A stretch of DNA of 64,000 nucleotides, taken from the IMG/VR virus record IMGVR_UViG_3300037189_024986, positions 1 to 64,000 of that record. One strand, given 5' to 3'. The stretch's first letter is position 1. Each line of letters starts with the position of its first letter. Of the stretch, positions 5,765 through 61,573 are shown one piece after another. Made by a program: the position numbers and the translations under genes. This DNA is from a virus. Below the pieces are notes generated by a model. That model searched no databases. It was given only the letters and a program-made list of their open reading frames with translations, and had not been told where the DNA came from.

Positions 5765-5781
5765 TTCTAATTACAAATCAC

Positions 5782-5810
5782 AAACCCTGGCTTCGGCCAG
5801 GGTTTTTTTG
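5782..5810 (+). terminator. Rho-independent terminator after the tail tube gene
   Basis: A perfect 10-base-pair stem, AAACCCTGGC (5782-5791) and GCCAGGGTTT (5796-5805), closes on the very stable UUCG tetraloop (5792-5795) and runs into a tract of seven T (5803-5809). This is the clearest terminator in the window. It separates high-level transcription of the tail tube gene from the chaperone and tape measure genes. Confidence 0.92.
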
Positions 5811-5828
5811 TTTCTATGTATCTTTTTC

Positions 5829-5837
5829 TTGTGTAAC
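5829..5837 (+). promoter_or_regulatory. GTGTAA motif downstream of the terminator
   Basis: TGTGTAAC at 5830-5837 resembles the recurring AGTGTAAT octamer. It lies 20 bases after the terminator and 23 bases before the ATG at 5861. A promoter is expected here because the terminator would cut off the genes that follow. Confidence 0.4.
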
Positions 5838-5860
5838 TACATTTAAGGGAAAGGAACATT

Positions 5861-6208: not shown

Positions 6209-6224
6209 TAATAAGAATAAAATT

Positions 6225-15628: not shown

Positions 15629-15646
15629 GTATTATAATATAATTAT

Positions 15647-34700: not shown

Positions 34701-36614
34701 GATGAAAACTATTATTACTTCTGTATGGCAAGGGGAAGATTTGGTATAAGAATAAGCGAGCCTTCTCAATTATTTATTGAAGATTGGATAGATTTTGATG
34801 TGAGTATGCGTAATGGAGGAAATAATGCATTCACAGCGAATAAAGCATTAACAGTCTCTTTCCAAGCTGGAGACGTGACCGTAAATTGTAACGCTTCTTC
34901 TGTTCCTTCTTACGCTGGATTCGTTCAAGATACTGATGCAATTCCAGAAGACGTAGTAGAAGAACAAATTCCTCCGCCAAATCGTGGATATGGAGATGTT
35001 TTTTCTTATAAATTTGTTGGACCATGGGGCTATAGAGGGGCAGTGCAAAGTTATACTCCTGGAACATTAAATGATACAAGAGGACTTAGAGAAACCTGGG
35101 GTAGACTTTTACATTATGGTTCTCTTTTCCATTATCACAAACAGCTTTCTCAAACAGAAGGCGATGCCTTATATGGAAGAAATCACTTGCCAGTTTGTAA
35201 CGCAGGGCATCAAATGTCCGACAAACAACAAGGCATAAAAGTTGTTGTAAATGGCATCACTCATTGGGCCAATATGCAAAATCCTATTGCAGACACAAAG
35301 GGTAAATATGGAGTACTTTGGAGCAAGTTGGGTAATGCCGCAGAGCTTTATAATCCTGCCGTTTCTATTACAAATGGCGCTATTGACACTAGTCCATCGC
35401 CAGGATTAGGACAATGGCAATACGGAAACAACTTTGGAGCAATTCATAATTTTGGCTGGTTTAGTAATTTGATTGAGCCTGGCGGTAACACTAATGTCGA
35501 AAACGGTGATTTAACTACTACTCCTGGAACATTATCTACGACGGATTTTAAAAAGCTTAAAACAAATGTTCTTCCCGCTGGAACTCTTGCGGGGAAAAAT
35601 TGTGGCTGGCACAAGGGCGGATTAGGAAGGTCTACTTCTTATTGGATAGAGGGTTTTAATGCTTTTTATGTTTTCTGCGACCCTTTAAAAAAGAAAAATG
35701 TTACAAATTATAGCTATATGAGTCCAGGATTGAGGCAGTCTAATAGCTCAATTCAATATTTTTGGTTGGGTAAACCAAATAATTCATACCTCGAAAGATA
35801 TCCAATGTTTGGTCCTTATGCTTACCAATGGAGGGTAAGAAGGCAAAATAGAGATAGAAATGGTAATGGTGTTTCAGAAGGCTTTTATTCTTATGGATGG
35901 GGATCAAACTATAGTTTAATGTATGATAATCCCGCCATTTATGGCCTTTTTATTAAATATAAACAAAAAGATCAATCTGCTCTTGCACAGATTAATAGCT
36001 ATAGAATTTCTGCATTTGGCTCTCCTGATGCAGCTTTAAGTGTTTCGCACACTAGATTTGGATTTACAAATGGAGATGGTGGAGCGCGACCCTATCCTTC
36101 TCCTGGAATTTGGATAGGTAATATTTCCGACCCAACTCCAAATACAACCAGAGATTATGTAAACAAAGGATATGCCAATGCTTTAAGCCCACAATTTTCT
36201 TTGTATGGATGTTCTGATGCTGATATTAATGCTGGAAACTGTTTTGATCCATGTATTAGTATGAGATATCAAAATGGGTTCTTGCCAGGTGGCAAAAAAC
36301 AAGATCTTTTTACAGCGAATAATTCATATCGTATCATTGCAAATAATCCAGTAGTAAATAATGTTACTGGCTCTTCAACAGTCGTTTTATCAGAAAACAC
36401 TTATTTTCGTGGTCCTTTTGGTGCGCCACATATAAAATACTTGTCATCTTTGGGAACAAAAGTAAATGGATTTTCCCCTTGTTTTGATGGCGGTGCAGAT
36501 CATTGTAATTATATTACCCCCACTATTAACATTGGAGATTCAACTTACTATGAATCAAAGGGTCCAGTTATAATAAATACTGCAATAAGTGTATCGCAGG
36601 TCGTGAATTTTTAA
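31764..36614 (+). CDS. Giant virion protein with a probable Ig-like domain
   Basis: This 1616-residue protein has the Ser/Gly/Tyr/Asn-rich, beta-dominated make-up of the fibre genes at 19-27 kb. Near residues 860-1060 it has features of an immunoglobulin-like fold: a SYKWYRIKK strand, a Cys-rich loop (GEWCCLEGDDQYC), and a YYYFCMARGRFG strand with the usual Tyr-x-Cys, ending in PSQLFIED. Cysteines are more frequent than in the other tail genes. The last third is Gly/Asn/Tyr-rich with YxWRVRRQ-like strands. It is probably part of the tail tip or a side fibre. It belongs to a second plus-strand virion block split from the first by the reversed genes. No full-length family was recognised. Confidence 0.5.
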   Translation: MNITTNNSIKNNIFDGSYQITVLPIPTGSAYSFWSGKILNPAGITGSLVYLSDEQRDSGYLFSGYSYTGDSFPFPKGVFLSGATSETTSVSGYLYYSLNTPLLGVCHGVGNTGENMWYNGYNFYNAFHPEGTFSPPFGQNISVYKSNSNGTAALAENGSCSSLTSQEYNDFFGIVSKADVNAEASADGIANGGTSFINSPAYACPEEVITVYYWHESQYNIIGGTVGAITANTFFNTNPIPTSLDNFDRKTDLRYSVSSEQGGTLPNGQKETIQHVLYDGGGKPIPAYQTVGANILNTVLCPSITAESSLSVGTQTESQLLLAADVLSNPSKGFFDYFNWWNLWHFLYKENTDGFPFQNDYGLFQGEGIVIPAGRSSNYGSQLFEAQISNENNYWDRRQCPMGINFLPHTFGGAIYACPSYTFEIPYYAATKKFGFYGARFLDGCISLSLNNTLNGQPNSSDLPPNFTYTTPQEEEPSPDVGTLSSNSRYDNLLDIANKEELHSDFYAMNKGLFLWSNSGLINSSPDFINLSLVPGFSQLFTNLLSQYSAVFPGGKSDILKNDYLYISGEESQFYDTGIYSLILSQNSNYKNFKNNLYDLLSGSLQISYWNNIEKDYSYAILSQKNQVDNSFYSQLQAGKQSRFFTRYLENYVKGNSVDLYPTNKIYFSYDSASSYVESSGWAKSPNSFGTASHFDPKITRRYFLGAYSNGQDVTGVANFSQNFAGINLNNYSFYPGYFNGNIGLELPPPSFLPVISGVYDSTNNPNFNNESIQGNSFPAVTNGWNLVGYNGIGRLNLNFSCFTPIFVQNPLPITHCKIGQAPTFRAYAVDYHTIPEDKMNNRYPEIRYWMDKLKISNGNKSVTAKTTNAYPLSYKWYRIKKSDCTGSVSDPTIQNGDFKKFLLNPDFSKIVPSSQSGEWCCLEGDDQYCTLIHPSGCIPPLPSPISSLKYKYANYPMQQTLKQNNYNMTFVKGAQKNEDENYYYFCMARGRFGIRISEPSQLFIEDWIDFDVSMRNGGNNAFTANKALTVSFQAGDVTVNCNASSVPSYAGFVQDTDAIPEDVVEEQIPPPNRGYGDVFSYKFVGPWGYRGAVQSYTPGTLNDTRGLRETWGRLLHYGSLFHYHKQLSQTEGDALYGRNHLPVCNAGHQMSDKQQGIKVVVNGITHWANMQNPIADTKGKYGVLWSKLGNAAELYNPAVSITNGAIDTSPSPGLGQWQYGNNFGAIHNFGWFSNLIEPGGNTNVENGDLTTTPGTLSTTDFKKLKTNVLPAGTLAGKNCGWHKGGLGRSTSYWIEGFNAFYVFCDPLKKKNVTNYSYMSPGLRQSNSSIQYFWLGKPNNSYLERYPMFGPYAYQWRVRRQNRDRNGNGVSEGFYSYGWGSNYSLMYDNPAIYGLFIKYKQKDQSALAQINSYRISAFGSPDAALSVSHTRFGFTNGDGGARPYPSPGIWIGNISDPTPNTTRDYVNKGYANALSPQFSLYGCSDADINAGNCFDPCISMRYQNGFLPGGKKQDLFTANNSYRIIANNPVVNNVTGSSTVVLSENTYFRGPFGAPHIKYLSSLGTKVNGFSPCFDGGADHCNYITPTINIGDSTYYESKGPVIINTAISVSQVVNF

Positions 36615-36621
36615 AGATATT

Positions 36622-36635
36622 AGTATAATAATAAA
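36622..36635 (+). promoter_or_regulatory. AGTATAAT variant of the late motif
   Basis: AGTATAAT at 36622-36629 differs from AGTGTAAT by one base and lies six bases before the ATG at 36636, in the 21-base gap between two giant virion genes. Confidence 0.25.
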
Positions 36636-39600
36636 ATGAGTATCAATAGTCAATTATTTGGTTTGGCGTCAGCAGTTGCCTATATAAGACAAGGCGGCGG
36701 CACCACAGCTAAAAATATTATACAGGGTATGAGCAATGCCTTTGGCGGCACCAATGATGATGGGACATATGCATATAATTTGTTTCAGGCTGATACTGGC
36801 ATACTTTATACAAATGGGTTTAATTTATCATATATAAGTTATGCTAACCTTGAAAACACTGTGTCTCCTCTCGTTGGTAACATTCCCGTCCTAAATGTTG
36901 GTATTTCTGCTTTAACTTATGGGTATGGGAACTATTACTCTATTGGCGAGTCAAATATAGTAAATTATATAAATAAATTTAATACAGCAATGGGATATCC
37001 CAATATTTCTATTACTGAATCAGACTTTGATATCATTTTTTCTAGCTTATCTTTAGAAGGCATAAATAATGATGTAATAAATTCTCCTGATTCAGCAAAC
37101 CCGATTGGTAAAAATGTCAATTATAATTGGTATGATTCTTCTGTTTTGTTTGGCTTAGATAAGTCTACTTCCCACGCCACATTAATTAAAGATATAGAAA
37201 ATCAATATTATTACCTTACAGGAAAATTAATCTATGATCCTATTCCTGGAGATTTAGTAAAATGCATTTCTTCTGGAACACTGATAAATACTTCTAGTGG
37301 AGTAATTTTTACTAATTATATTTTAAATCAGCCTTGTTATGATGCGGATTCTTATATCGGTCCTGTTTCTGGAATTAATTTTTTTAGAACATTTAATGAT
37401 GGTCCAGGAACATCTGGATATTTTGATGATACCGTTACCCAAGAATATGTGAATTTTGATAAAGCTATTTTAGCAAAAGAAGATTATTCTTCAAACAATA
37501 GAGCTTTATATTCTTATCAAACTGATGAAAATGGCAATTATTTATTTTTGAAATCTGGAGTAAATATTGATGTTCCTGGAGTGTTTAATCCGTCAGAAGA
37601 ATATGGAGCAGGACATACAAATAAAATATCTGCTGGACAGTATTGTTCTTTTACTGGATATTATGCAGAAGGCGTTCCATTAATGAGAATGCATCAAGGC
37701 GATAATCAATTAAAATGGAATGTCCAAAAGAGTTATGTCGGAGATTATCCTAATGGCATTTGTGTTATCACTAGCTCTTTGGAAAATTGGACTGGTTGGA
37801 AATTGGTTAATTTTGAACTTGATGAAAGTCAATCTGAATATTTTCAAAATGTCTTGACAAATCCTGACGCCAATTTAAAAAGATTTTTAAAAAGATGTTT
37901 AAGTTTAACTAATTCAAAAGATTCTCATGGTAATCCAGTGACTCCTTATAGTTTGGTATATGAATATAATACTGGGGTATTGGCTTGCTATGGGCCTTAT
38001 AATGCTCCGACTGATGAACTTGGTCATCTTATCCCAACTTATGTTGGTCCTCCTCAATTAAATGGCTCTGCCGACTTGCCTGGACTTGCTTTTTATCAAA
38101 CTTTTGATAATTCAAATTTCCCAGACTCAGGCGGAGAATATATTACAATTAATATTCGTCCAGTAATATCTAGTTCTTCTGCGGGATCAATAAATGGAGA
38201 TTCTACAAGGACTTTTTCTTCCAGCGTCTCTAATTCTAATCTTTTTTCTTTGTCTGGGTCGTCCCATGCAGGTTTAAATGCCGCAAAATTAAGTTTTAAT
38301 AAAAAAATTGATTCTTCGGGTCTTTCTGGTTACGATGATATATTCAAAAAATGTTTATCTATTGGTGATAATTTTCAAAACTCTATTTCTGGAGCTTTAT
38401 ATCCACAATCGAATGCTGGATTTAATTATTCTGGTGGAATATATTTTTCTGGAAACGAAATTGTGTATCCTCAAGACTTATTGCATTTGTCCAAACTTAT
38501 TGGTTCAGAATATTCTGGCGTAATGTTTTTAACTGGGTTTCAAAATATAAATGATAATTCTGTGTCATTGATAAACAGATATGATTCACAATTTTATACT
38601 GGTAATGTTTCTAATGGAGCAAAGACCGCTGGAGAAAATGTAGGATACTATTATTTTCAAGACACAATATTGGGTGCATCAAACGCTGGTTGGGAAAGTT
38701 TTTCTCCAATTCCTCCAGATGTTCAAAATGACGCTGATAATCTACCTTATCTTTCTGGTATATATTCTGGAATTTCTTTAACTAGTAAAGTAGAAAATTA
38801 TTTACCAAGATATTATTCTGGACCATATAGAAGCTATTCTATAAAATTTTTATATCCAAATGCTTCTGGTGCAACAATCACATATGATTCTAAACTAAAT
38901 GGATTTCCGTATAAAATTACGTATTCCATGACAATTAAAGAAGAATCTGTTAGAGAAGTATATGGCTTGTCTGGACTCTATAGCAGTCAGCAAAATTTAT
39001 ATCCTATTAGAGCCAATGCTTTTGGTGGAACATCTGCATTAAATGAATTAATGCCGACCATGTTTTTAAGTCCATATACATATAATTTTAATGTAAATAA
39101 ATCTATTTATCCAGATTCAGGGGGCTTTAATCATTCAGCTTCTTATGGTGGATTTGTTAATGGATTTTATGTTCCTAATTTTAGAAACAATATAAATGAC
39201 CCATATAATGCGCCGAATTATTGTACTCAATCTTTTTTAAATAGTAACGCGTACCAAGATTCTTGTTCTTTTATAAATGGCATTAAAACTACTGGAAAAG
39301 TTAATTATAAAGTTATTTATACTGGCGGAGGACTTACAAAGAAAATTGGTTTTATTGAGCCAGCCCTAGATTCTACTTTGTTTTGGAATTATTCTTCAAA
39401 TAAAATAACGGGAGAAGCTTTTTATGTTCCTCCAGTTTTTGATTTGTCTACATATACAATTAATCCTTCTCAAAATTTATTAGACATGACTGTGAATAGA
39501 TTGTTTGGTAAAAAAACTGATCCAACTTTTTCAAACAATGGTCTTGTAAGAACAGGTATTCTGGTCGATGGATTTGATCCAATTTTCTATGAGTATGTTG

Positions 39601-41435
39601 GTGGAAGAATTGGTTCTGGGGCAAATAATGAAGGTGGCTATAATAGCAAAAATATTATTGGCGATCAATGGTTGGATTTTTACGCAAAAAATTGGGGAGT
39701 TTATAATGCCCCAAATTGCCCTAATTATGGTACTCACGAGGAGCGTCTTGCTAAGAATGATAATTATTTGATACTTTCATCATTTACAAATAGCGGTCTA
39801 AATATTTATGCCAGAGGATTAAACTATTATCCCTATTTTAGCAATTGGACTTATACTAAAATGAATGGGTTGGGCAATATAGGCGTTACAACCAGCCAAA
39901 TTAATTTAAATGGTGAATCTTATTATAATTTTGATTTGCAAAATATATTCCCCACCAAAACTGTTCCATTAAGTGGTCAATTTTATTCTTCTGGCGGTTT
40001 TAATCTTGGACCTTTCCCTCAAGATGTTGAGCTTTGTGTTTCTGGAGCAGATTCTATTATTCCAAGCGGTTATCTTTTTGTGGATGGAGAGCAAATGACT
40101 TTTAATTATCTCGGTAACTGTCCAATAAATAATATGGAAAATTTTGTTCCTAATTCTGGAATTATTACAAGTCAAGCTGGAAGAGGGTCTCTATTAACTA
40201 CTTTTAAATTAATTCCTTCTGGTTCTTTTGTAAACTTAAATATAAAAAGTTTTACATCTATTGGTTCAGGTTTAATTGGAATTACTGGAAAATCAACGGT
40301 GACCATTCGTCCAAGAACTTTGCTTGGCGCAGTCAATACTGATAATTATGATGATTATGGGTATCCATTCATTTCTGGGGATTATCTCGCTAATATGAAT
40401 GCTTCTAATTATATAAATAATGGCTCAGAAAGCATTTTCTCTGCAAATCTTAGTCAATTTACAGATTTGATTGGTCAAAATATATCAAAGCAGACCCCAG
40501 TGCGTTCGGAGATAATTTTCCCCGTTCCTGGTCCTGATTTTATTCCTTATCTTAGTGGTTTGGGTCTAGTTACTTCGGACGCCAATGGAAATTATGTATT
40601 TACAACTACAAGAGGGCCCACTTATGATTATTGGGTAAATAAAAATCCTTATGCCTTATTTACTGGAATTAGAGAATCAACAAGGCTTTCAATTCAAATT
40701 GATAATATTTCTTTAGATTATTCTCCTGTACCATATCAAAGCTATAAAAATATTATTGTGTCTGGGGCATGTACAATAAGCGGAGAATTTTCTTATACTG
40801 GACAAGCAGAAAGCGCAATACTTTCCCAAGGTATAGTTTTGTCGGGATGGACTGGAAGCGGATATTCTGCTGCTGTATTAAGAGATATTTCTGCGCCAAT
40901 TTATGTTTCTGATATATTAAGTCGTCTTCCTGGAAATTTGCTTCCTTCTGGACAAGGGATAAACTATCTTTTAGAAGCCCCCTCTTTAATGAAAAAGAGA
41001 AAGCGCTTTTTTCAAATTACTGGTGGAGATACTTATATTGATGCTCCGCCTCCAGGGGTAACCAATTACAATAAATTCGCTTGGCCAGCTTTAAGTGATT
41101 TAGCTACTTTGAATCCAAACATTGTTTACGAACAGCTTCCTCCAGAAGATGGGTTTATTTTTCCAACAGATAATTTAATATTTAGCGCATCTCAAGGGCA
41201 AGCGATTTTAACTGGAGCAACATCTGGAACAAAATTCAATCCAGTAGAAAACGTCACCTATCAAGCAATTTTAAATTACGCTTTTCTAGATAGTACTGCG
41301 ACTAATTCACTATATAATTCTGGAAAATGTATTTTTCCATTTACAGAAGGCTCTAATATAATAAATAGCGGCAATCTAACTGGAGTACTCGTACAAGAGC
41401 GCACTCCTTTGGCAGTCTATATAAATTTCGTATAA
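36636..41435 (+). CDS. Giant virion protein, fibre or tip type
   Basis: This 1599-residue, low-charge protein is very rich in Ser, Gly, Asn and Tyr, with repeated short beta strands (for example STIYSGISLTSKVENYLPRY-like and GSGLIGITGKSTVTI). The N-terminus (MSINSQLFGLASAVAYIRQ) looks like a short helix that could anchor it to the tail. Several segments near the C-terminus (GACTISGEFSYTGQAESAIL, VLSGWTGSGYSAAVLRD) suggest repeated beta modules. No enzymatic domain is visible. It follows the other giant gene after 21 bases and ends two bases from the stop of the convergent polymerase gene. A tail-tip or fibre role is inferred from composition and neighbours. Confidence 0.5.
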   Translation: MSINSQLFGLASAVAYIRQGGGTTAKNIIQGMSNAFGGTNDDGTYAYNLFQADTGILYTNGFNLSYISYANLENTVSPLVGNIPVLNVGISALTYGYGNYYSIGESNIVNYINKFNTAMGYPNISITESDFDIIFSSLSLEGINNDVINSPDSANPIGKNVNYNWYDSSVLFGLDKSTSHATLIKDIENQYYYLTGKLIYDPIPGDLVKCISSGTLINTSSGVIFTNYILNQPCYDADSYIGPVSGINFFRTFNDGPGTSGYFDDTVTQEYVNFDKAILAKEDYSSNNRALYSYQTDENGNYLFLKSGVNIDVPGVFNPSEEYGAGHTNKISAGQYCSFTGYYAEGVPLMRMHQGDNQLKWNVQKSYVGDYPNGICVITSSLENWTGWKLVNFELDESQSEYFQNVLTNPDANLKRFLKRCLSLTNSKDSHGNPVTPYSLVYEYNTGVLACYGPYNAPTDELGHLIPTYVGPPQLNGSADLPGLAFYQTFDNSNFPDSGGEYITINIRPVISSSSAGSINGDSTRTFSSSVSNSNLFSLSGSSHAGLNAAKLSFNKKIDSSGLSGYDDIFKKCLSIGDNFQNSISGALYPQSNAGFNYSGGIYFSGNEIVYPQDLLHLSKLIGSEYSGVMFLTGFQNINDNSVSLINRYDSQFYTGNVSNGAKTAGENVGYYYFQDTILGASNAGWESFSPIPPDVQNDADNLPYLSGIYSGISLTSKVENYLPRYYSGPYRSYSIKFLYPNASGATITYDSKLNGFPYKITYSMTIKEESVREVYGLSGLYSSQQNLYPIRANAFGGTSALNELMPTMFLSPYTYNFNVNKSIYPDSGGFNHSASYGGFVNGFYVPNFRNNINDPYNAPNYCTQSFLNSNAYQDSCSFINGIKTTGKVNYKVIYTGGGLTKKIGFIEPALDSTLFWNYSSNKITGEAFYVPPVFDLSTYTINPSQNLLDMTVNRLFGKKTDPTFSNNGLVRTGILVDGFDPIFYEYVGGRIGSGANNEGGYNSKNIIGDQWLDFYAKNWGVYNAPNCPNYGTHEERLAKNDNYLILSSFTNSGLNIYARGLNYYPYFSNWTYTKMNGLGNIGVTTSQINLNGESYYNFDLQNIFPTKTVPLSGQFYSSGGFNLGPFPQDVELCVSGADSIIPSGYLFVDGEQMTFNYLGNCPINNMENFVPNSGIITSQAGRGSLLTTFKLIPSGSFVNLNIKSFTSIGSGLIGITGKSTVTIRPRTLLGAVNTDNYDDYGYPFISGDYLANMNASNYINNGSESIFSANLSQFTDLIGQNISKQTPVRSEIIFPVPGPDFIPYLSGLGLVTSDANGNYVFTTTRGPTYDYWVNKNPYALFTGIRESTRLSIQIDNISLDYSPVPYQSYKNIIVSGACTISGEFSYTGQAESAILSQGIVLSGWTGSGYSAAVLRDISAPIYVSDILSRLPGNLLPSGQGINYLLEAPSLMKKRKRFFQITGGDTYIDAPPPGVTNYNKFAWPALSDLATLNPNIVYEQLPPEDGFIFPTDNLIFSASQGQAILTGATSGTKFNPVENVTYQAILNYAFLDSTATNSLYNSGKCIFPFTEGSNIINSGNLTGVLVQERTPLAVYINFV

Positions 41436-41436
41436 A

Positions 41437-43998
41437 TTACGATTCCTTTAATTCTGCCAATTTACTATAAATTTTATTTTGTTGGGTAGCGATGATGTCT
41501 GCAAAGACACAATCATCTTCCATTTTTGTGCCGCAAACAATGACAATGTCTCCTTCTTTTGGCAAACCATTATTCAAAGACTTACATTGTTCAAGCTTGT
41601 CTTTAAAAATCATGACCTTCAAGCTTCCTGTTTCGTCGCTGATTTGAAATCTAGCATAAGTATTTCCATTTTTTGTTTTTCCTGTTTTGGGCGCTTCTTC
41701 TAATACTCCAATGAAATCGCATTTTGTTTTTTCTCCATATCCTTGGATATCAACAATAGGCTCTAGGGTTTCTTTTTTAGAAAGGAATATATCAATCAAT
41801 TTTTTGCCATGAGTATATCCAATCAACTTGTTCTCATACCACCAATTTGCAAAATCCATGCATCCCTTGTTCTGCAAATAAATTAATTTATATTTTTCCG
41901 AATGCTTCTTTATCGTTTCAAATCGAGAGGCCTTAATAAGATTTTTGCCTTTTTCATCTTTAATTGTATCAACTAAAGCTTTGACTGTTTTGGAGACGCT
42001 ATTTTCATAATTGTTTGCATAATTGATAACGTGCCTTTTTTCTTTATCCGTTAAGATATTCCAAAGCTGCGCCTCGTAAACAAGTAATGGGCGATTATTA
42101 GATAAGCTATCAAGCGTACCAGCTTGAATAAGAGCAGACAAAACACCTATTCCAAGACCAGCTTCTTTAGAAGACTCAAAAAGTTCAAATTTATTAGAAT
42201 GGCGTCTTTTAAAATTATTAAATTTTTCAATTGTTTTTTCACTTATGCCCCTAATAGAAGACAAGCCAAATCGAATGTTTTTGCCTTCAATAGAGAAATC
42301 GACTTCGGAGAGGGTTAAACTTGGAGGAAGCAATTCAACCTTCAATGCGTTCATTTCTTTATGAATCTTAGAGATTTCGCCAATTGGGTCGGGTTCATGC
42401 CTAGTCATTTTCAACAATGACAAATAAAATTGAGTAGGATGATTAAACTTTAAATATACTGTTTGCGCACACAATACGGAATAAGAGAAGCTGTGAGACT
42501 TGTTAAATTGATAACCGCCAGAGTCTTCAACGATTTTCCAGAAGACTTCGCCCACTTCTTTGGGGAGTTTATTTTCTTTGACCTTTTCTTCAATCTTTGC
42601 TTTCCAAGTTTTAATTTCTTCAATCTTCTTTTTACCAATGCATCGACGAATCTGTTCTGATTCATCCAAGGTAAAGCCAATTTTATTAGCCATTTTCATA
42701 GCCTGTTCTTGATAAAGACACAGTCCGCCGGTTTCTCGTAAAACATCATCAAAGAATGGATGAATTGAATCTACTGTTCCTGTATTAGAATAATTTGCAA
42801 AGTTATCTGCAAATTGCAAGGCTCCTGGTCGAGCAATAGCCAATACAGCACTGATTTCAGACAAATTCTTTGGTTTAACTTTCTTTGCGACCTTAAAATT
42901 AGTCTCTGCTTCAATTTGAAAGACTCCATGAGGATATTTCAAATCTTGTAGATGCAAATAAATAGATTCTTCATTTACATTGATATCTTGAGGCTTAATT
43001 CCCAAAGACTTGCAGCAATCATCAATTACTGATACGCTTCTCAAGCCGAGGGCGTCCAGCTTAACAGCAAACTCTGCCACCCATCCCATGTCATAACTAG
43101 ATACTTCTTCTTTGTCAGAAGAAAGTTCTGTTGGGCAACAGTCTTCCAGCTTGTCAAAAGAAATCAGGATTCCAGAAGGATGGACTCCCTTGTTTTTAAT
43201 TAAATCTTTTAATTTTAAAGCGGTATCATAAATCAAAGAATTTTTACTGCACCATTCTTTAAACTCTGGGGAAGTCTCATACGCCTCCTTCATGTCCATA
43301 ATGATACCATGGTTTTTTGGAATAAAACCCGTAACCATCGTCATTTCTTCCTCGGGCTTCATTCCTAGAACTTTGCCAACTTCTTTAATACAAAGCTTTG
43401 CAGAAAGAGTGTTGAGAGTAAGGATTTTTGAAGTTTTACCTTTGTATTTTTGATTGATATAATCAATAACTTTAGAACGCTGATAATAATCAAAATCAAT
43501 ATCAACATCCATCAGAAGAGAGCCAGCAAGATAAATAATTCCATCAATAACAGTCTTTTTTGAGCGAGTTTTTGAAATGAAGCGTTCAAAATATAATTCA
43601 TTTTTTAATGAATCAATCTTTGTCACACCAATAAGAAAAAGAACAAGACTTCCAGCGGCAGATCCACGACCTGGACCAGTGGGAATATTTTGCTCTCTGC
43701 AAAAGTTTACAACATCCCATACCAACAGAATATAATCGACTAGACCAAGGTCATTGATTGTATCTAATTCGTATTTGACTCTGGTGGAATAATCTTTGTA
43801 TTCTTTTGAGCCTTTTGCATGACCCAAAGCAAGGAAACCTTTTTTACAAAGAGAACGTAAAAAATCAAAATTAGAGCAATCCTCTCCTAATCCCAAATCT
43901 TTTCTATGGCGTTCCTCGATTTTAATTTCTGGAAGACGCACTCCTTTAATTGGGCTTTCAATTGTAGAGAACTGACTGACAAAATCCAAAGTATTCAT
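41437..43998 (-). CDS. dnaE: C-family DNA polymerase III alpha, catalytic part without PHP
   Basis: This 853-residue product copies phage DNA. It aligns by motif with bacterial DnaE from just after the PHP domain. It shows PTGPGRGSAAGS (106-117), the catalytic pair Asp166 and Asp168 in DVDIDF, and the third metal ligand Asp314 in KLDALGLRS. These correspond to D401, D403 and D555 of E. coli DnaE. Fingers and helix-hairpin-helix parts follow (VFQIEAETNFK, QEQAMKMANKIGF, FNKSHSFSYSVL, FGLSSIRGISEKTI), and an OB-fold lies at about 750-840. The N-terminal PHP domain is absent and is encoded separately two genes upstream. The start overlaps the exonuclease stop (ATGA), so the subunits are translationally coupled. 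All catalytic aspartates are intact, so it should be active. Confidence 0.93.
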   Translation of the reverse strand: MNTLDFVSQFSTIESPIKGVRLPEIKIEERHRKDLGLGEDCSNFDFLRSLCKKGFLALGHAKGSKEYKDYSTRVKYELDTINDLGLVDYILLVWDVVNFCREQNIPTGPGRGSAAGSLVLFLIGVTKIDSLKNELYFERFISKTRSKKTVIDGIIYLAGSLLMDVDIDFDYYQRSKVIDYINQKYKGKTSKILTLNTLSAKLCIKEVGKVLGMKPEEEMTMVTGFIPKNHGIIMDMKEAYETSPEFKEWCSKNSLIYDTALKLKDLIKNKGVHPSGILISFDKLEDCCPTELSSDKEEVSSYDMGWVAEFAVKLDALGLRSVSVIDDCCKSLGIKPQDINVNEESIYLHLQDLKYPHGVFQIEAETNFKVAKKVKPKNLSEISAVLAIARPGALQFADNFANYSNTGTVDSIHPFFDDVLRETGGLCLYQEQAMKMANKIGFTLDESEQIRRCIGKKKIEEIKTWKAKIEEKVKENKLPKEVGEVFWKIVEDSGGYQFNKSHSFSYSVLCAQTVYLKFNHPTQFYLSLLKMTRHEPDPIGEISKIHKEMNALKVELLPPSLTLSEVDFSIEGKNIRFGLSSIRGISEKTIEKFNNFKRRHSNKFELFESSKEAGLGIGVLSALIQAGTLDSLSNNRPLLVYEAQLWNILTDKEKRHVINYANNYENSVSKTVKALVDTIKDEKGKNLIKASRFETIKKHSEKYKLIYLQNKGCMDFANWWYENKLIGYTHGKKLIDIFLSKKETLEPIVDIQGYGEKTKCDFIGVLEEAPKTGKTKNGNTYARFQISDETGSLKVMIFKDKLEQCKSLNNGLPKEGDIVIVCGTKMEDDCVFADIIATQQNKIYSKLAELKES

Positions 43999-44639
43999 AT
44001 TTCTATTTGATATTTTAGCTTATTCCAGACTTTGAGGTTTAATTGCAAATCAACCAGTGCGTTATGCAAATTGTCATAGTCATGATCTATATTATACTCT
44101 TTACCAAGAGAAGTCAAGTTCGTTTTAATGCCTTTTATATGTGCGTTTGCCATCGTGTATTGATAATCCATCCAAACATCATCATTTGGTCTATATGGGC
44201 GGTTCATTTTGATTCCTTGCGCAACGGATTTTGTATCAATGATTTTATCAAGGATAAAAGACCAATCTTCACCCATATATTCGAAATATCCTTTTAATAA
44301 GTAAATGTCAAATCGTAAACCATTGTGCATTATAATTTTATCTGCCCATTTTAACGATTCAATGATTTTCGGAAATGCCTCATCGGGCGTAACACTGTTT
44401 TTATCAAAATGAGCTTGATTGAACTTGGTTACCATTGCCGCCCCTGCGCCTATTTTAAATTTACAATCATCCCACTTGATTAGAAGATCTATTTCTTCGA
44501 TAATCTGTTCTCCTTCTACCTTTAATACTGCAATCTGCCAAGGTCTATTTGCCTGAAAATTTAAATTTAAATTAAATGTTTCGCAATCAATAAGTGCAAT
44601 CTTTGCTTTTTTATTAAATCTGATAAGATGTTCGTCCAT
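43995..44639 (-). CDS. DEDDh 3'-5' exonuclease, DnaQ/epsilon-like
   Basis: I chose ATG 44639 rather than the first in-frame ATG at 44690, because the latter overlaps the PHP gene by 47 bases and adds residues unlike the family. The 214-residue product has all DEDDh residues in order: Asp18 and Glu20 (ALIDCETF), Asp111 (IIMHNGLRFDIYLL), His192 and Asp197 (LHNALVDLQL). It is therefore a proofreading-type exonuclease. It lies between the two parts of the split polymerase III alpha gene and overlaps the catalytic part by four bases, which strongly suggests it proofreads for that polymerase. In PolC-type enzymes the exonuclease is inserted in the PHP domain, so the gene order here echoes PolC. Confidence 0.88.
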   Translation of the reverse strand: MDEHLIRFNKKAKIALIDCETFNLNLNFQANRPWQIAVLKVEGEQIIEEIDLLIKWDDCKFKIGAGAAMVTKFNQAHFDKNSVTPDEAFPKIIESLKWADKIIMHNGLRFDIYLLKGYFEYMGEDWSFILDKIIDTKSVAQGIKMNRPYRPNDDVWMDYQYTMANAHIKGIKTNLTSLGKEYNIDHDYDNLHNALVDLQLNLKVWNKLKYQIEI

Positions 44640-44643
44640 AATA

Positions 44644-45405
44644 TTATTTGTTATTTTCACGCAGCCAACGGTCATAATTAAATGAATCACTGCAAAGATG
44701 ATTAAATTCTGGCTTTTCTATATTTGTTCTTTCCGAAATGCATCTAAATGTGTTGTAGGCAATAAAGTCAAGTTTTGATTTATAATAAATGCTTTGAACT
44801 TCAAGCGTTTCTAATTTATTATTTTTACTATAATCAAGTACTTTTTTTCGCAGCAGCCCATCAAACGGAATTCCATTATCTTCTAAAAACATTATTGGTT
44901 TAATTGCGCCAAATTCAGGGACATGAAAATGACCTTCAAAAGAATTTAAATGAAGAAAAGAGTCATAAAATGGCACTGCGAGACTCAAATCTTCTACCCA
45001 TAATCTATGAAGATTTGCAAAGTCTAAACAGGCATTGTAGTAAAACCCCTCTTTTGCCGCAATGCTCCAAAGCTTTATTAAAGCCTGATAACCTTTATTA
45101 TTTTTGGCGAAAATGATATATTTCGCCCTGCTGTTTAGCGAATCTGCGTCCTGATTTTTAATATCTTTTGTTATTGAAATTCTTAATCCAAAGATTAATT
45201 TAAGTTTATTTTCTGTGCATCGAGTAATTGCCTCTAAAAAAGAAGAAACATTATCCTCGACAAGACAAAGATGGTCTTGTTTGGAATGAAGAACTAAATC
45301 AATGATAGAAACAGGATAATTTTCAATTGAACCAGATGGCTTTTCTAGGGTATTAATTGATTTTCCCAAAGAAAAATGGCTTTTGTAACAAGCAAGTTTT
45401 TGCAT
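44644..45405 (-). CDS. Separate PHP domain of DNA polymerase III alpha, degenerate
   Basis: This 253-residue protein matches the N-terminal part of DnaE: a YKSHFSLGKS start (cf. the VHSxYS strand), HLCLVEDN (cf. ALTDH), LKLIFGLRISI (cf. IKPIVGxE), and KYIIFAKNNKGYQALIKLWSIAAKEG (cf. the LLAxNxxGYxNLxxL-S helix). It ends in the AFRCI..-type helix region (YNTFRCISERTNIEKPEF) just where the separate catalytic gene begins. The metal-binding histidines and aspartates of active PHP domains are mostly lost, so it is likely structural. It is probably needed to complete the polymerase fold or to bind the adjacent exonuclease. The domain assignment is strong; the inactive state is inferred. Confidence 0.75.
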   Translation of the reverse strand: MQKLACYKSHFSLGKSINTLEKPSGSIENYPVSIIDLVLHSKQDHLCLVEDNVSSFLEAITRCTENKLKLIFGLRISITKDIKNQDADSLNSRAKYIIFAKNNKGYQALIKLWSIAAKEGFYYNACLDFANLHRLWVEDLSLAVPFYDSFLHLNSFEGHFHVPEFGAIKPIMFLEDNGIPFDGLLRKKVLDYSKNNKLETLEVQSIYYKSKLDFIAYNTFRCISERTNIEKPEFNHLCSDSFNYDRWLRENNK

Positions 45406-45443: not shown

Positions 45444-46496
45444 TTAAAAATCATCTAATGCATCTTTATATTTCTTCTCTATCTTAGTCTCTGGCAATTC
45501 GCCTATTGCATTACAATATCTTGGGCAACCTTTATAAACTGCTTCTTCAATAACTTGACCTTCTTTTAAAACAATATCTTCTTTCTTTTTGTAAGATTTG
45601 ATTTCTTTTCCGTCTTTTTTAACAATATAGTAAGTAAAGCCAAATTTATAACTGCAATGCCACATTGGGGTGCCATCTTTTTTTAATTGACCAGGTTCTT
45701 TGGCAAAACCGCACATGAGCTTTCCAGAAAAAGTTCCATCTGTTGGCATACCCTTATCTGCCGCCATATTAGAATAAGCCTGTTTTTCAGAAAAATTTTC
45801 TAATCTGTTTTGAATAGATTCAAGATAATATTCTGCTCCCTTTAATTGGTCTTCATTAAATGATACTTCAACAATTGGGTCTTCTGGAAATTGTAAAAAG
45901 ACAAACCTGACTTTTGGGGTCAATTCTGGCCATATTTTTTTGCAAGCAATAGAATAAATTATGCCCTGAAGATTAGAATCAATATCTTCTCCCTCAAATT
46001 TCTTTTTTGAAGTCTTATAGTCATCAATAATAATCTCGTTGCCTTTTTTAGATGGGCGGTCAATAAATCCTCGAATCAAATATCTAGGAGATTCATTAAG
46101 AATATTAAATTCATATTCTGGCTTAATTAGTTTTGCGCCCTTCACATAAAAGTCAGCCTTTAGACCAACAAGAATCATTTGATTGATATGGTCGTAAACT
46201 TCTTTTGTATTTGGAAGCTTATACTTTTTAATTCTATTTTTGATAAATCTATTTACCGTTGGGCATCCAGAGATATGGTCTTTTTTAATTATTAATTTAT
46301 ATTTATTTTTGTGCTTTGGCAGAATCAATAGTTCAAATAGGTCATGAACAACAGAACCCTTCAATGCTCCCTCATTTGTAGAATCAGGCACATTATTTTT
46401 ATACTTTTGAAAGTATGTCCAGCTACAGCCTTCAAAAGTCTTGACCTTTGATGCAGATATTGCTGTAAGCTCTAATTTAGGTATTGCTTCTTCCAT
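45444..46496 (-). CDS. RecB/Cas4-like PD-(D/E)XK nuclease
   Basis: This 350-residue protein has the RecB-nuclease pattern: SASKVKTFEGCSWTYFQKY (14-32), GSVVHDLFE with His51, RGFIDRP with Asp146, the IDDYKTSKK active-site strand (Asp159, Lys161), and Gln177...Tyr181. Such enzymes trim DNA ends during replication or recombination. Cys24 near the N-terminus and Cys262, Cys281, Cys324 and Cys328 near the C-terminus could bind an iron-sulfur cluster or zinc, as in Cas4 and AddB, but the spacing is not canonical. The start overlaps the primase stop by 25 bases, so it is part of the replication operon. Confidence 0.8.
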   Translation of the reverse strand: MEEAIPKLELTAISASKVKTFEGCSWTYFQKYKNNVPDSTNEGALKGSVVHDLFELLILPKHKNKYKLIIKKDHISGCPTVNRFIKNRIKKYKLPNTKEVYDHINQMILVGLKADFYVKGAKLIKPEYEFNILNESPRYLIRGFIDRPSKKGNEIIIDDYKTSKKKFEGEDIDSNLQGIIYSIACKKIWPELTPKVRFVFLQFPEDPIVEVSFNEDQLKGAEYYLESIQNRLENFSEKQAYSNMAADKGMPTDGTFSGKLMCGFAKEPGQLKKDGTPMWHCSYKFGFTYYIVKKDGKEIKSYKKKEDIVLKEGQVIEEAVYKGCPRYCNAIGELPETKIEKKYKDALDDF

Positions 46497-47371
46497 GAAT
46501 AAATTTCCTCGCAGCTCATTTCACCAAAATCTTTGGCAGTCGGTAGAGCAATAGTGACTTGACTTTCATCAAAATAATTCAAAAGCTTTTCTTTATATTC
46601 CAATGAAGCTTTGTTTCCAACAAAACTGTTATATTCATCATTGTTTAAAGAAATGATGATGCGTCCTGCATCCAATTTTAAAAGGTGTTGTATAATTTTG
46701 GGGCTAAGACTAACGCCAAAAGACACAAGAACATTATTTATTCCACATTCCATCATCTTTAAGCAGTCTCCAATTGATTCAACCAATATGACACAGTTTG
46801 CTTTTTTAATTGCTTCTGAAGCATTGGTTGGGAAAATAAAGTCTTTCTTTTGCCCCAATATCTTCCATTTTGGTAGAGAATCATTATTTTGCAATAGTCT
46901 TCCAGCAAAACCAATCAAATCTTCCCTATCGTTGAATATTGGAAACACATATCTACCTTTCATCCTGCCATTTTGGGCTACTCCACCGCCAAACTGATTC
47001 AAAACATGGTCAGAAATGCCTCTTTTCTTCCAATATGAGTTATCTTTTAATAATTTAATTAAAAGTTCCTTGTCAAACTTCTTGGTGTCGCACAATTCTA
47101 TGGATTCTGAATTACTTATAGATATTGGTAGGTCTCCAATATAATTTTTAGTATCTCTTATAGAGGGCAAATTAAGCGTTTTCTGCACTAACTGTGCCAA
47201 ACCACCACCAATACGCTCCGCGTGGTCGTACCATTGACCATTTGATTTTTTAATACAAAGAACTGTCGGGTTATCAGAATCACGATATAGGGGTTTTGCC
47301 CTCCATACATCTCCAGAATCAACCAAAGTGACATATCCAATACTATTTAATACTGAAAGAACATCGCTCAT
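46472..47371 (-). CDS. DnaG-like primase with Toprim domain
   Basis: This 299-residue protein makes RNA primers. The first 65 residues look like a shrunken CHC2-type domain (YRDSDNPTVLCI ... WYDHAERIGGGLAQLVQ) in which the zinc cysteines are lost. The RNA polymerase core has RYVFPIFNDREDLIGFAGR (140-158). The Toprim part has the conserved Glu in VILVESIGDCLKMMECGI (Glu198) and an acidic SLNNDE segment (241-246) in place of the usual DxD. It is short compared with bacterial DnaG (about 580-650 aa) and lacks a separate helicase-binding domain. The start overlaps the helicase stop by four bases (ATGA), consistent with a helicase-primase pair. Confidence 0.85.
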   Translation of the reverse strand: MSDVLSVLNSIGYVTLVDSGDVWRAKPLYRDSDNPTVLCIKKSNGQWYDHAERIGGGLAQLVQKTLNLPSIRDTKNYIGDLPISISNSESIELCDTKKFDKELLIKLLKDNSYWKKRGISDHVLNQFGGGVAQNGRMKGRYVFPIFNDREDLIGFAGRLLQNNDSLPKWKILGQKKDFIFPTNASEAIKKANCVILVESIGDCLKMMECGINNVLVSFGVSLSPKIIQHLLKLDAGRIIISLNNDEYNSFVGNKASLEYKEKLLNYFDESQVTIALPTAKDFGEMSCEEIYSWKKQYLN

Positions 47372-48852
47372 AGTGTTTCCTCCCTTATTGTGGGTTGATC
47401 TGCAACCAGAAATTGAGAATTTTGTCTGTTTATTGTATCAAGCAGAGAACCTCTTTCTTCTACTTTAAAATTATTAATATTAAAATTAATAAAATTAGGC
47501 ACATATTTCTGGGTTCCATCTGGAAAAGTCCTACGAATCAAGTTGTTGTGCCCTGCCGCATTCCTCCCTTGATAGCGAGCCTTGATTTCAATCAATTTGT
47601 GCGTTCCGCTTTCTGGAGTATCCATAACCATTTCATCCTCTGTTCTGCGACGAAAAATGCCCAAATAAGTAGTAAACCACATTAGTCGGTCTGAAAGAGC
47701 GATTGCTGAACCATCATCCGTGACATCCTGAGCTTTTTTATTTGTATTTTCTCCAGAGCGATTCAATTGGATGGCAGTCAACAAAGGAAAGTCGAATTCC
47801 ACAGAGATTCTCTTGAGCTTGTCTACTTTTTCTCCCAAAGCTTGATGCTCTGCCCAATTTTGGGCAAGTTTTTCTCCAGTCAATTTCAGATAATCATAAA
47901 CTACAATAGCTTTATTACCCCTTCCAACCACATTCAAATACCAACGACGAATAATAGAACACACTTCGTCAACGTTTTTATTGCCAACATAATAATGATA
48001 AGTTTTATAATCTTTCTTAAGATTTTTAAGATGCTTTCTTACCTTTTCAACGTAATCAGGATTTTTTCTCCAATTACCGCTTTCAAGATACCAAAGAGGT
48101 ACTCCTGAATTTGCGGCAGCGGTACGAAATTTAATTTCTTCCGTGGTCATTTCTGTGTCAAGAACAAGAACGGGGACTTTATTAATCCTTCCTGATTCAT
48201 TGGCCCAATCATTAAGGATTGTTGTTTTACCTTGTCCTGCGCGAGAAGCAATTGCATAAATGTTTCCGCCGCGCAATCCACCATAGCAACGATTAAATTC
48301 AGGATACGGAGTGACCAAGCCATTTTCTTCTTGAGGATTATTCCCTCTTTCTTCGACCATTTCAAGAATATCTTCGAAAAGCGCAGAGGGCTTACCATCA
48401 GTATCAAAAGAAATCATCTTTTCTCCATAGATTGCATCTACTTCAGAAATGGTTGTATTTAGTTCTTGATTTGCAGATTTATTAACATGGTCTTTGATTC
48501 TATTGCAAGACTCTTCAATATCTCTCAAAGCCCTGAGCTTAACAAGCTCTTTGCAAGCTTTAAGCGTTGCCTCTTTTGTAATAGAGGCAAAAGAAATACT
48601 TTCTACATAAGAAAAAATATCAATATTGTCTTTAAATGCAATACCAAGATTTTTAATCTTTTGAGCGAGGATAACTTTGTCAATTTTTTCGTTTTGAAGA
48701 AAAGAAGACCTAATGCAGCTATAAATTGTCGAATGAGGCTGGGCAACAAAATCTTTTTCAGAAACAAAAGATTCTATTTCAGATATTGCATCTTGATTTT
48801 GAATCAATCCTGCTAAAACGTGTTTTTCTATCTGTAATGAATGTAAAGGCAT
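47368..48852 (-). CDS. dnaB: Replicative DNA helicase, DnaB family
   Basis: This 494-residue protein has both DnaB parts. The N-terminal helical domain (residues 5-120) begins with the usual LQIEKHVLAGLIQN pattern. The C-terminal RecA-like motor has a Walker A SRAGQGKTT (203-211), an LDTEMTTEE segment (231-239, the SLEM-like motif), a Walker B VVYDYLKL (317-324), and a LTAIQLNR segment. It unwinds the fork ahead of the split polymerase. The start codon ATG 48852 lies inside a hairpin-forming inverted repeat in the mRNA, suggesting translational control. The primase gene overlaps its end. Confidence 0.93.
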   Translation of the reverse strand: MPLHSLQIEKHVLAGLIQNQDAISEIESFVSEKDFVAQPHSTIYSCIRSSFLQNEKIDKVILAQKIKNLGIAFKDNIDIFSYVESISFASITKEATLKACKELVKLRALRDIEESCNRIKDHVNKSANQELNTTISEVDAIYGEKMISFDTDGKPSALFEDILEMVEERGNNPQEENGLVTPYPEFNRCYGGLRGGNIYAIASRAGQGKTTILNDWANESGRINKVPVLVLDTEMTTEEIKFRTAAANSGVPLWYLESGNWRKNPDYVEKVRKHLKNLKKDYKTYHYYVGNKNVDEVCSIIRRWYLNVVGRGNKAIVVYDYLKLTGEKLAQNWAEHQALGEKVDKLKRISVEFDFPLLTAIQLNRSGENTNKKAQDVTDDGSAIALSDRLMWFTTYLGIFRRRTEDEMVMDTPESGTHKLIEIKARYQGRNAAGHNNLIRRTFPDGTQKYVPNFINFNINNFKVEERGSLLDTINRQNSQFLVADQPTIREETL

Positions 48853-48896: not shown

Positions 48897-49199
48897 TTAA
48901 ATTACGTCTGAATCGTCTTCACCAGACTGAGCCTCTTCATCCCTTACGGACGTTTCAATATTGAATCTTGCGCTTTCAATATTCATGTCGTTTAATGCTA
49001 CAGCCCAATCTGTTATATGCTTTTGTAAAGCTAAACAATGCGCGGGAGAATCAAATGTCATTATATTTTCTGGTTGGCCATCTTCATTATTAAAATAAAA
49101 TAAAATAAACCCTCCAGCCGTATGCTCAACCAATTGATTGATTACTTGGTCTGGAACTGACCCATTGTTTTTACTTTTTTGCTTCGACATCTTGCTCAT
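48897..49199 (-). CDS. Hypothetical protein, acidic C-terminus
   Basis: This 100-residue protein lies upstream of the helicase gene on the same strand. It has a short basic N-terminus, a central two-strand segment (GGFILFYFNNEDGQPENIMTF), a helix (ALQKHITDWAVALNDM) and an acidic C-terminus ending in GEDDSDVI. Acidic tails are typical of phage ssDNA-binding proteins, but the rest does not show an OB-fold pattern, so I do not assign that. A small regulatory or replication accessory role is possible. The start ATG 49199 follows directly after a GTATAAGTGTGTAATT stretch containing the late-motif core. Confidence 0.55.
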   Translation of the reverse strand: MSKMSKQKSKNNGSVPDQVINQLVEHTAGGFILFYFNNEDGQPENIMTFDSPAHCLALQKHITDWAVALNDMNIESARFNIETSVRDEEAQSGEDDSDVI

Positions 49200-49268: not shown

Positions 49269-49682
49269 TCAGAGTGTAATATTAAATCTTTCTAAGAAGA
49301 AGGTTGTTGATAATTCTTTAATTTCTTTTGTATAGATAATGACTTGTTGAAATTTATTGTCTAACAACCATTGAGACTTTATTTCGTCGTTCTTTATTCC
49401 TTTTAAAAAACTGGCTCTAGAATTATTATGAAAATAATGAAAGTCTTCATGCTGTGGGCCATGAACTTCTATAGCGATTTTTCTTGTAGCATTTAAAATA
49501 TCAACTTTCAATAAGCTTCCGTAAACAGGAAATTCTTCATATACGATATTATTTTTCCAATAAGGATATAAAAATTTTTTTACATCAGCTTGAGCAATGG
49601 AGCGAGACTTCTTATCCCATTTGATAAGAAATCTCGTTACATTCTTATTAATCAATTTACCATTTACGCTTAAAAGTCTCAT
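49269..49682 (-). CDS. Vsr/DUF559-like PD-(D/E)XK endonuclease candidate
   Basis: This 137-residue protein shows the compact nuclease pattern of Vsr and DUF559-type enzymes: KVDILNATRKIAIEVHGPQH with Asp61, Glu72 and the following His-Gly-x-Gln-His segment. A helix comes after it where a D...K..WL pattern (NDEIKSQWLLDN) matches the family's end. The usual Glu-x-Asp or Glu-x-Lys is Glu-x-His, so activity needs care. It overlaps the recombinase stop by four bases, so it probably acts with it, for example in processing recombination intermediates or homing-type cleavage. The family is inferred from motifs. Confidence 0.6.
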   Translation of the reverse strand: MRLLSVNGKLINKNVTRFLIKWDKKSRSIAQADVKKFLYPYWKNNIVYEEFPVYGSLLKVDILNATRKIAIEVHGPQHEDFHYFHNNSRASFLKGIKNDEIKSQWLLDNKFQQVIIYTKEIKELSTTFFLERFNITL

Positions 49683-50773
49683 GCTTTGTTCAACGCATTT
49701 CTAAATTTATTAAAAAGATAATCTCTAATATCAGTATGCTCTTCTAAATATTTTCTAAGATTGTCTGAGCCTTGATGTTGTTTTTCCATTTCCAATTTAT
49801 TTTCTTTTAGTTCCGTCAATAGAGAATCAGAAATCGTTACCCATGCACCTTTGGCAAGCGCAAACTGCCAAGATAAAAGCTGGTCAATAATTTCGTATTC
49901 AATCCAGACGCTTTGTCCATCTTTGCGGCCATATTTGATTGGATACTTTACCTCTGTTCCTGTCTTTTCATTTGGCGTCTTGCGAAACATTATTTTGCAC
50001 CAATGACCAATGGGTTTCTCTTCCTTATCTTTAATGATATCTTTTTGCCATCTCTGCTGAAATTCAAGAATCCAATCGCTGTAATGCAAAGCGGCATTTC
50101 CTCCTGAAGCATTTGTGACCTTTGGGTCGCCTTTGACATATTGGCTAATCTGAATAGATGAGCGAACTTGAGAGATTAAGAAGCAGATATGCCCTCTGCT
50201 TGAGAACGCTGCCGCCATCTTCCTAAGAAGGTCTGCCGTCAACAATGCTGCACCAGCAGTTTTATTTGCTTCTGTCGCAGATTTAAGCAAATCATTTCTA
50301 GGAACAAGGGCGTCAAGAGAATCAAGGATAAAGAAATAATATTTATCATCATCTTTATCTCTAATAAGACCTCTCATTAAGTCGATTACAAATTCGTAAT
50401 CGTTAGTAGGAATGACTCTCCATTGATTTGGGTCAGTAGAAACCCCAGACCTACTAATAATGTCCGCGCTTAGTCTTCCTTCTGATTTGATATAAATTAC
50501 TTGACCTTTCTTTGGATGAAGCTTTTGAAAACTTGCTGCAAAAGCCATTGCATTGCTTGTTTTTCCACCCTCGGTGATTCCACTAGAGCGCACAATTCCT
50601 GGGCGAATTCCTCCACCCATCTCAATATCTAAATTGAGACTGCCGCTGCTAACGACATAATCTACTGCTTCGTCAAAAGCATAATGATATTCAGAATTGT
50701 CCTTAAGATATTTGTCTAGGACAGTCATTTGCTTATTATCTGGTTCTTCTTTTTGTTCTTTGATTTTTGCCAT
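49679..50773 (-). CDS. RecA/UvsX-like recombinase
   Basis: This 364-residue protein has the RecA core: SGSLNLDIEMGGGI at about 43-56, a Walker A GITEGGKTS (65-73), a Walker B FILDSLDAL (148-156), and a mobile loop and strand segment ICFLISQVRSSIQ (about 196-208) with ASGGNAALHYSDWILEF following. The C-terminal part is short. It should form filaments on single-stranded DNA and promote strand exchange for recombination-dependent replication. The nuclease gene downstream overlaps it by four bases; the upstream gene ends four bases before it. Confidence 0.88.
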   Translation of the reverse strand: MAKIKEQKEEPDNKQMTVLDKYLKDNSEYHYAFDEAVDYVVSSGSLNLDIEMGGGIRPGIVRSSGITEGGKTSNAMAFAASFQKLHPKKGQVIYIKSEGRLSADIISRSGVSTDPNQWRVIPTNDYEFVIDLMRGLIRDKDDDKYYFFILDSLDALVPRNDLLKSATEANKTAGAALLTADLLRKMAAAFSSRGHICFLISQVRSSIQISQYVKGDPKVTNASGGNAALHYSDWILEFQQRWQKDIIKDKEEKPIGHWCKIMFRKTPNEKTGTEVKYPIKYGRKDGQSVWIEYEIIDQLLSWQFALAKGAWVTISDSLLTELKENKLEMEKQHQGSDNLRKYLEEHTDIRDYLFNKFRNALNKA

Positions 50774-61569: not shown

Positions 61570-61573
61570 ATTT

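Follow-up and report, generated by a model that had tools for sequence, protein, structure and literature searches.

Within the 82,247-base viral record IMGVR_UViG_3300037189_024986, we analysed the first 64 kb (hereafter the window), which come from a tailed phage, as a 2,530-residue protein encoded at 8036–15628 matches tape measure families. Three adjacent minus-strand genes of this phage encode a 253-residue protein matching the PHP family (PF02811, E = 1.4e-9), a 214-residue protein matching RNase_T (PF00929, 1.8e-9) and an 853-residue protein matching DNA_pol3_alpha (PF07733, 6e-60). An initial annotation, made from the letters of the window, had described them as a degenerate PHP domain, a DEDDh exonuclease and the catalytic part of DnaE, the alpha subunit of DNA polymerase III (Pol III); its coordinates, lengths and families were right, and so was its statement that the PHP and catalytic proteins together make one DnaE. 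Indeed, the PHP protein covers positions 44–236 of the DnaE model TIGR00594 and the polymerase positions 268–1022, and because these positions are complementary the two proteins are complementary pieces of a single DnaE. When both were aligned with E. coli and phage DnaEs, the break fell at E. coli alpha residues 246–254 in all eight divergent members compared, with about 10 residues missing at the break and the polymerase opening with the linker towards the palm. No intein fragments are present at this break: the PHP protein stops at the end of its domain and the polymerase begins with its linker, without extra residues on either side.

The 853-residue protein is a DnaE-type catalytic core with intact active-site residues, which starts just past the PHP domain. 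PF07733 is followed by PF17657, PF14579 and PF01336 in DnaE domain order, and the protein matches TIGR00594 at 1.8e-131 but no PolC model. Profile searches of the PDB returned DnaE at 5e-114 versus PolC at 3e-5, and an AlphaFold2 (AF2) model (predicted local distance difference test, pLDDT, 86.5) retrieved DnaE structures with Foldseek E-values down to 1.7e-37, PolC structures following at 2.8e-15 or weaker. The catalytic residues of E. coli alpha are D401, D403 and D555. They align with Asp164, Asp166 and Asp315 of the phage protein, and not with the Asp166, Asp168 and Asp314 proposed initially; Asp164, Asp166, Asp168 and Asp315 are all invariant in 105 polymerase sequences. The polymerase also carries a conserved hairpin insertion of about 14 residues just ahead of the catalytic DxD (residues ~146–160), a site at which four phages (L013–L016) have an insertion of about 100 residues, and a helical region of about 90 residues (~640–740) between the helix–hairpin–helix (HhH) and OB domains, where DnaE has its clamp motif. 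On one contig from a metagenome-assembled genome (MAG; L178:9599-12583), the polymerase itself lies in two open reading frames (ORFs) of 594 and 397 residues, either a further break or a frameshift.

The 253-residue protein models as the PHP domain of a DnaE. Its AF2 model (pLDDT 69.5) found DnaE-type polymerase chains as all of its top 18 PDB matches in Foldseek (best E 9e-11; template modelling score, by query length, up to 0.75); the matches include the alpha–epsilon chimeras 4gx8 and 4gx9, and PolC appears only after the DnaE chains. PHP domains of C-family polymerases carry nine metal ligands, HHDHEH[C/H]DH (PMC12926913). Among 179 distinct phage PHP sequences, 175 keep none of the nine and the other four keep one, which bears out the description of the domain as degenerate. 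Three of the vacated positions are instead occupied by basic residues, namely Lys/Arg at ligand 2 (173/179), Arg/Lys at ligand 5 (177/179) and Lys/Arg at ligand 6 (176/179), and ligand 8 is replaced by Ser/Thr in every sequence (179/179). A smaller sequence set agrees for these four positions; at ligand 3 the alignment is uncertain (K/R in the set of 179, E/S/K in the smaller one), and we build no claim on it. The sequences share a mean pairwise identity of 56% and conserve motifs unlike those of ordinary PHP domains (PFYDSF and N-x-LPFD). Since the replacement residues at the ligand positions are conserved, the protein is a maintained pseudo-enzyme in which basic residues have replaced metal ligands, and not a product of decay. 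In two relatives (L065:1751-3070 and L078:8001-9320), the PHP protein carries an additional domain of about 180 residues fused to its C-terminus (439 residues in total), which resembles stand-alone ORFs found in the same gap of other loci.

The 214-residue protein lies closest to the proofreading exonucleases: its best NCBIfam match is the epsilon family PRK06310 (4e-12), and the sole PDB sequence match of its profile is the PolC-type exonuclease of T. maritima (2p1j, E 9e-11). Its active site consists of D18, E20, D111, H192 and D197; across relatives the D, E, D and H are kept in 111 of 111 sequences and the last D in 110. A bona fide Pol III epsilon, as described by Barros et al. (PMC3666897), has a DEDDh site and a C-terminal tail that binds alpha. 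The phage exonuclease has the first and lacks the second.

The arrangement was then followed across IMG/VR, in which scans using each of the three proteins as well as profiles yielded more than 500 candidate relatives; the best 80 of each scan were kept. A six-frame hidden Markov model analysis covered 243 complete loci (some contigs being counted more than once; these loci hold the 179 distinct PHP sequences), and all 243 have PHP, exonuclease and polymerase in this order as separate ORFs on the same strand; every incomplete locus is cut by a contig end. This recurrence excludes chance as the cause of the arrangement. By definition a DnaE starts with a PHP domain on its own chain; the phage polymerase does not, its PHP domain being on a separate gene in each complete locus; fused PHP–polymerase proteins were found only in the four distant loci L013–L016. 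Two outcomes had been named that would have spoken against the initial annotation, a 253-residue protein that is no PHP domain and PHP homologs unlinked to a polymerase: the former is answered by the structure prediction above, and no unlinked homolog was found among the complete loci.

The exonuclease gene, which had been placed exactly at the break, does always lie between the two halves, but the gap is not specific to it. The spacing between PHP and exonuclease is at most 60 nucleotides in 116 of the 179 distinct loci and exceeds 150 nucleotides, usually with other genes, in 63; for exonuclease and polymerase the corresponding counts are 88 and 91. Whole genes spanning up to 2.8 kb thus separate the halves in such loci. 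Between PHP and exonuclease they are diverse, coming from about ten or more unrelated families, cupin-like proteins included. The gap between exonuclease and polymerase mostly holds one conserved ORF of about 74 residues (ASLDDIYD..., with an acidic tail), found in 77 of 113 distinct loci and absent from this place in the window. It was considered as an analogue of theta (HolE); it has no Pfam match and shows no detectable relationship to the 100-residue ORF of the window (table 1).

In a quick maximum-likelihood tree built from 55 polymerases, all 34 that are split fall into a single group (Shimodaira–Hasegawa-like approximate likelihood ratio test 100; branch length 1.41), with all other DnaEs, E. 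coli included, outside it. Deeper placement is unsure because the outgroup branches are long. The split is old, and the simplest reading of this tree gives it a single origin. Pairwise distances of the PHP, exonuclease and polymerase proteins correlate (r 0.88–0.93), so that none of the three has been swapped on its own. Beyond the viral records, a single scan of genome assemblies from bacteria and archaea returned seven contigs, all from MAGs; as the labels of these MAGs differ widely, the contigs are probably misbinned virus. They include contigs binned as archaeal or Candidate Phyla Radiation, namely L180 (Candidatus Lokiarchaeota MAG) and L176 and L182 (Woesebacteria MAG). Against 50,697 phage records, the polymerase found matches below 60% identity only (19–36% for those listed) and the PHP protein matches at 22–38% identity, while the exonuclease found none at E 0.01. 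The split replicase typifies a large clade of uncultured aquatic tailed phages.

The most economical reading of these results is a three-part core. We consider it probable that these phages possess a Pol III-type replicative core spread over three polypeptides, in which the pseudo-PHP docks on the polymerase in trans and the exonuclease proofreads. The pseudo-PHP would dock on the palm and thumb of the polymerase, its place in an ordinary DnaE, where it would stabilize the polymerase and offer a docking surface for the exonuclease, the latter supplying proofreading; the conserved Lys/Arg at the old ligand positions would hold the site together in place of the metal ions. In E. coli, mutations in the degenerate PHP site reduce the stability and activity of Pol III, and the loss of PHP ligands accompanies a separate DEDDh proofreader (Barros et al. 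2013, PMC3666897); epsilon is attached to alpha via the thumb and PHP (PMC7584608). The phage system has the same pairing of a ligand-less PHP with a separate DEDDh proofreader, but with the PHP detached.

Several observations weigh against this reading. Docking, complex formation and proofreading are steps that we infer, beyond the nature, integrity and co-inheritance of the three parts that the loci display, and the confidence of the PHP model is moderate. The signal of co-inheritance is itself no stronger than that obtained with the primase (mirror-distance correlation). In a covariation analysis of low power (mutual information with average product correction; 155 loci, effective number of sequences 63), neither proposed pair stood out from control gene pairs, the PHP–polymerase signal being 0.28 times and the PHP–exonuclease signal 1.3 times theirs. 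The exonuclease extends only 17 residues past its last Asp, versus 76 in E. coli epsilon, leaving no epsilon-like alpha-binding tail. Finally, no conserved clamp-binding pentapeptide of the canonical type (Q-x-x-[LMI]-[FL]) was found in any of the three proteins, non-canonical motifs remaining possible, and no beta clamp was found in the phage's own record or in the 15 relatives searched.

A bolder version is conceivable, although we lean against it: the pseudo-PHP would be a free-standing dead subunit whose former metal site now serves, as a conserved basic pocket, in a new role, and the replicase either an obligate core of three polypeptides or a DnaE that polymerizes without an attached PHP. 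Such a pocket may bind DNA, a nucleotide or a replisome partner, or may regulate the exchange between polymerase and exonuclease. Alternatively, the pseudo-PHP may have left the polymerase altogether and been re-purposed, in which case the polymerase would work with no PHP at all and the cationic pocket that once held metal would bind DNA, a nucleotide or another replisome protein. The three former ligand positions conserved as Lys/Arg, which go beyond passive decay, the motifs unlike ordinary PHP and the absent (low-power) PHP–polymerase covariation would all fit such a departure. We nonetheless regard it as unlikely, as PHP never occurs without the polymerase in the 243 complete loci, its fold is retained with DnaE as best match, and the E. 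coli PHP mutations cited above (PMC3666897) impair Pol III itself.

It is less likely still that the PHP–polymerase complex is real and that the exonuclease merely shares its operon, acting elsewhere in recombination, end trimming or degradation of host DNA. The missing alpha-binding tail, the genes that often separate the exonuclease from its partners and the presence of a Cas4/RecB-like nuclease in the same operon are compatible with such a role; its invariant position between PHP and polymerase, its intact DEDDh site and its best matches, which are epsilon and PolC exonucleases, argue for proofreading. Moreover, because the PHP is dead, a replicase without this exonuclease would have no recognizable proofreading site.

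The initial annotation had also seen in the locus an echo of PolC, in which the exonuclease would mark the site of insertion known from PolC, and a possible view of how a fused PolC-like enzyme arises or breaks up. The constant gene order is a notable likeness that remains: in the PolC of Gram-positive bacteria, PHP, a DEDD exonuclease and a C-family polymerase form one unit, in which the exonuclease is encoded ahead of the polymerase core, within or behind the PHP sequence, as the phage exonuclease gene lies between the halves in every complete locus; among PDB sequences, the exonuclease profile likewise matches nothing but a PolC-type enzyme. PolC differs, however, in being one chain with an N-terminal OB domain, whereas sequence, structure and domain order all place the phage core with DnaE, and its OB domain is C-terminal. 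Within PolC, the exonuclease is inserted into PHP after ligand 5 and before ligand 6 (the PHP profile matches residues 371–478 and 640–684 of 9qpc), whereas the phage break falls after ligand 9. In addition, the gap is also filled by unrelated genes and the best NCBIfam match of the exonuclease is to epsilon. As the tree gives the split one origin and no fused intermediate was found in the complete loci, the phage genes do not show how PolC arises, and a PolC-like enzyme in the course of fusing or breaking up is very improbable.

That the gene is merely broken (a frameshift, an assembly error, a decayed PHP remnant, or halves rejoined by frameshifting or a split intein) is hardly credible: split or frameshifted DnaEs exist in phages G, phiT1 and phiST, and an intein splits cyanobacterial DnaE (PMC3919608), but here the same break recurs in 243 loci from many metagenomes, whole genes intervene, PHP is conserved and neither half has an intein-sized extension, on which grounds we rejected frameshift, assembly error and split intein alike.

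Taken as a three-polypeptide core, the phage replicase resembles the E. coli Pol III core (alpha, DnaE1, and epsilon, DnaQ), which likewise joins a DnaE-type polymerase and an inactivated PHP to a separate DEDDh exonuclease. It differs in that its PHP is a separate protein and in that ligand loss is complete, with Lys/Arg substitutes; in addition, its exonuclease has no alpha-binding tail, a theta homolog is not recognized and no clamp motif is conserved. Several other phages also encode DnaE in more than one gene. In Bacillus phage G (gp329/gp331), Cellulophaga phage phiST (gp044/gp045) and Rossellomorea phage phiT1 (gp20/gp18), the cut lies inside the polymerase, the first piece comprising PHP and part of the palm without a separate PHP subunit, a comparison that rests on annotated gene lengths and domain hits, whole-length mapping onto E. 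coli being unreliable at the ends. The gap in phage G holds a homing endonuclease gene. Group 2.2 jumbo phages have a minimal PolIII-alpha split between genes (PMC7824862). These known split forms, that of jumbo phages included, are thus either cut inside the polymerase or devoid of PHP. Bacillus phage vB_BpsS-140 (MH884512, unannotated; L202:4785-8392) is cut near the same domain boundary, into a PHP protein of 363 residues and a core of 852, but its ORFs overlap by about 40 nucleotides, its PHP ligands are intact and no exonuclease lies between them; this single case may have arisen by a separate splitting event or by a frameshift. Wifcevirus WFC and Xanthomonas phage FoX6 resemble the present phages in that a DnaQ-like gene lacking the epsilon tail adjoins DnaE; their DnaE is one gene, however, and the exonuclease gene lies upstream instead of in a break. 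Among the remaining isolate phages of the survey, every PHP that could be detected is encoded together with the polymerase in one gene.

In E. coli, the PHP domain is considered catalytically inactive, and the evidence for its structural role comes from point mutants of a single chain that folds cooperatively. The present loci reveal a phage replication module that is widespread, that has no near counterpart among the 50,697 phage records searched and in which a domain hitherto regarded as integral to DnaE is removable and can be tested on its own. As PHP is a separate protein here, adding it to or omitting it from a reconstituted replicase would test its role in polymerase stability, proofreading and exonuclease docking. 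The loci also show that a split at the PHP–palm boundary can persist stably over long evolution. While split phage DnaEs are already known, a conserved stand-alone PHP subunit appears to be new: no description of one for Pol III was found in the full-text literature searched, whose coverage leaves out the viral-replicase survey of Kazlauskas and Venclovas (2011), which may mention the split.

The three genes end a replication module that is transcribed from the minus strand in the order RecA-like recombinase, small nuclease-like ORF, 100-residue ORF, DnaB-like helicase, DnaG-like primase, Cas4/RecB-like nuclease, PHP, exonuclease and polymerase (table 1). The exonuclease is read from the ATG at 44639, whereas the mechanically called ORF begins at an upstream GTG (44690), and the overlap of its stop with the polymerase start likely couples the translation of both.

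Table 1. Features of the replication locus and accessory genes. Positions are those of the window unless a relative (L007, L012, L033) or the rest of the record (L203) is named.
Feature	Position	Strand	Evidence
Stand-alone DnaE PHP domain, 253 aa, nine metal ligands all replaced	44644-45405	-	PF02811, TIGR00594, AF2/Foldseek
DEDDh 3'-5' exonuclease, 214 aa, proposed proofreader	43995-44639	-	PF00929, PRK06310
DnaE catalytic core without PHP, 853 aa, palm/thumb/fingers + HhH + C-terminal OB	41437-43998	-	Pfam, TIGR00594, AF2/Foldseek
Break point: PHP stop TAA (44646-44644), then 4-nt gap to exonuclease ATG	44640-44646	-	sequence
Exonuclease stop/polymerase start overlap, ATGA	43995-43998	-	sequence
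PD-(D/E)XK (Cas4/RecB-like) nuclease, conserved upstream neighbour	45444-46496	-	PF12705 1.5e-13; syntenic in relatives
DnaG-like primase, conserved neighbour	46472-47371	-	TIGR01391 1.4e-17; synteny
DnaB-like replicative helicase, conserved neighbour	47368-48852	-	TIGR03600 1.9e-43; synteny
100-aa ORF of replication module	48897-49199		
RecA/UvsX-like recombinase, first gene of module	49679-50773	-	PF00154 8.8e-16; synteny
~74-aa ORF, examples in relatives	L033 from ~1928; L007:8638-8925; L012:7792-8004		
Accessory genes (glycosyltransferases, ribonucleotide reductase, PAS, SET)	29259-31196, 60775-62416, 62427-63272		
Accessory genes, same set, rest of record	L203:302-1396, 4560-6530, 12964-13590, 14935-15975		

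Within the module, a small protein resembling homing or HNH-type endonucleases (49269–49682) is a constant member beside RecA in most relatives. Two adjacent and very large plus-strand genes (31764–41435; 1616 and 1599 residues) converge on the module from the other side, the pair ending 1 nucleotide from the polymerase stop; the products of this pair are likely structural, and counterparts occupy the same place in two relatives (L002 and L006). For a phage, the accessory gene set is varied: alongside several glycosyltransferases it includes a ribonucleotide reductase whose insertion domain is of the B12 type (class II), a PAS-domain protein and a SET-domain protein.

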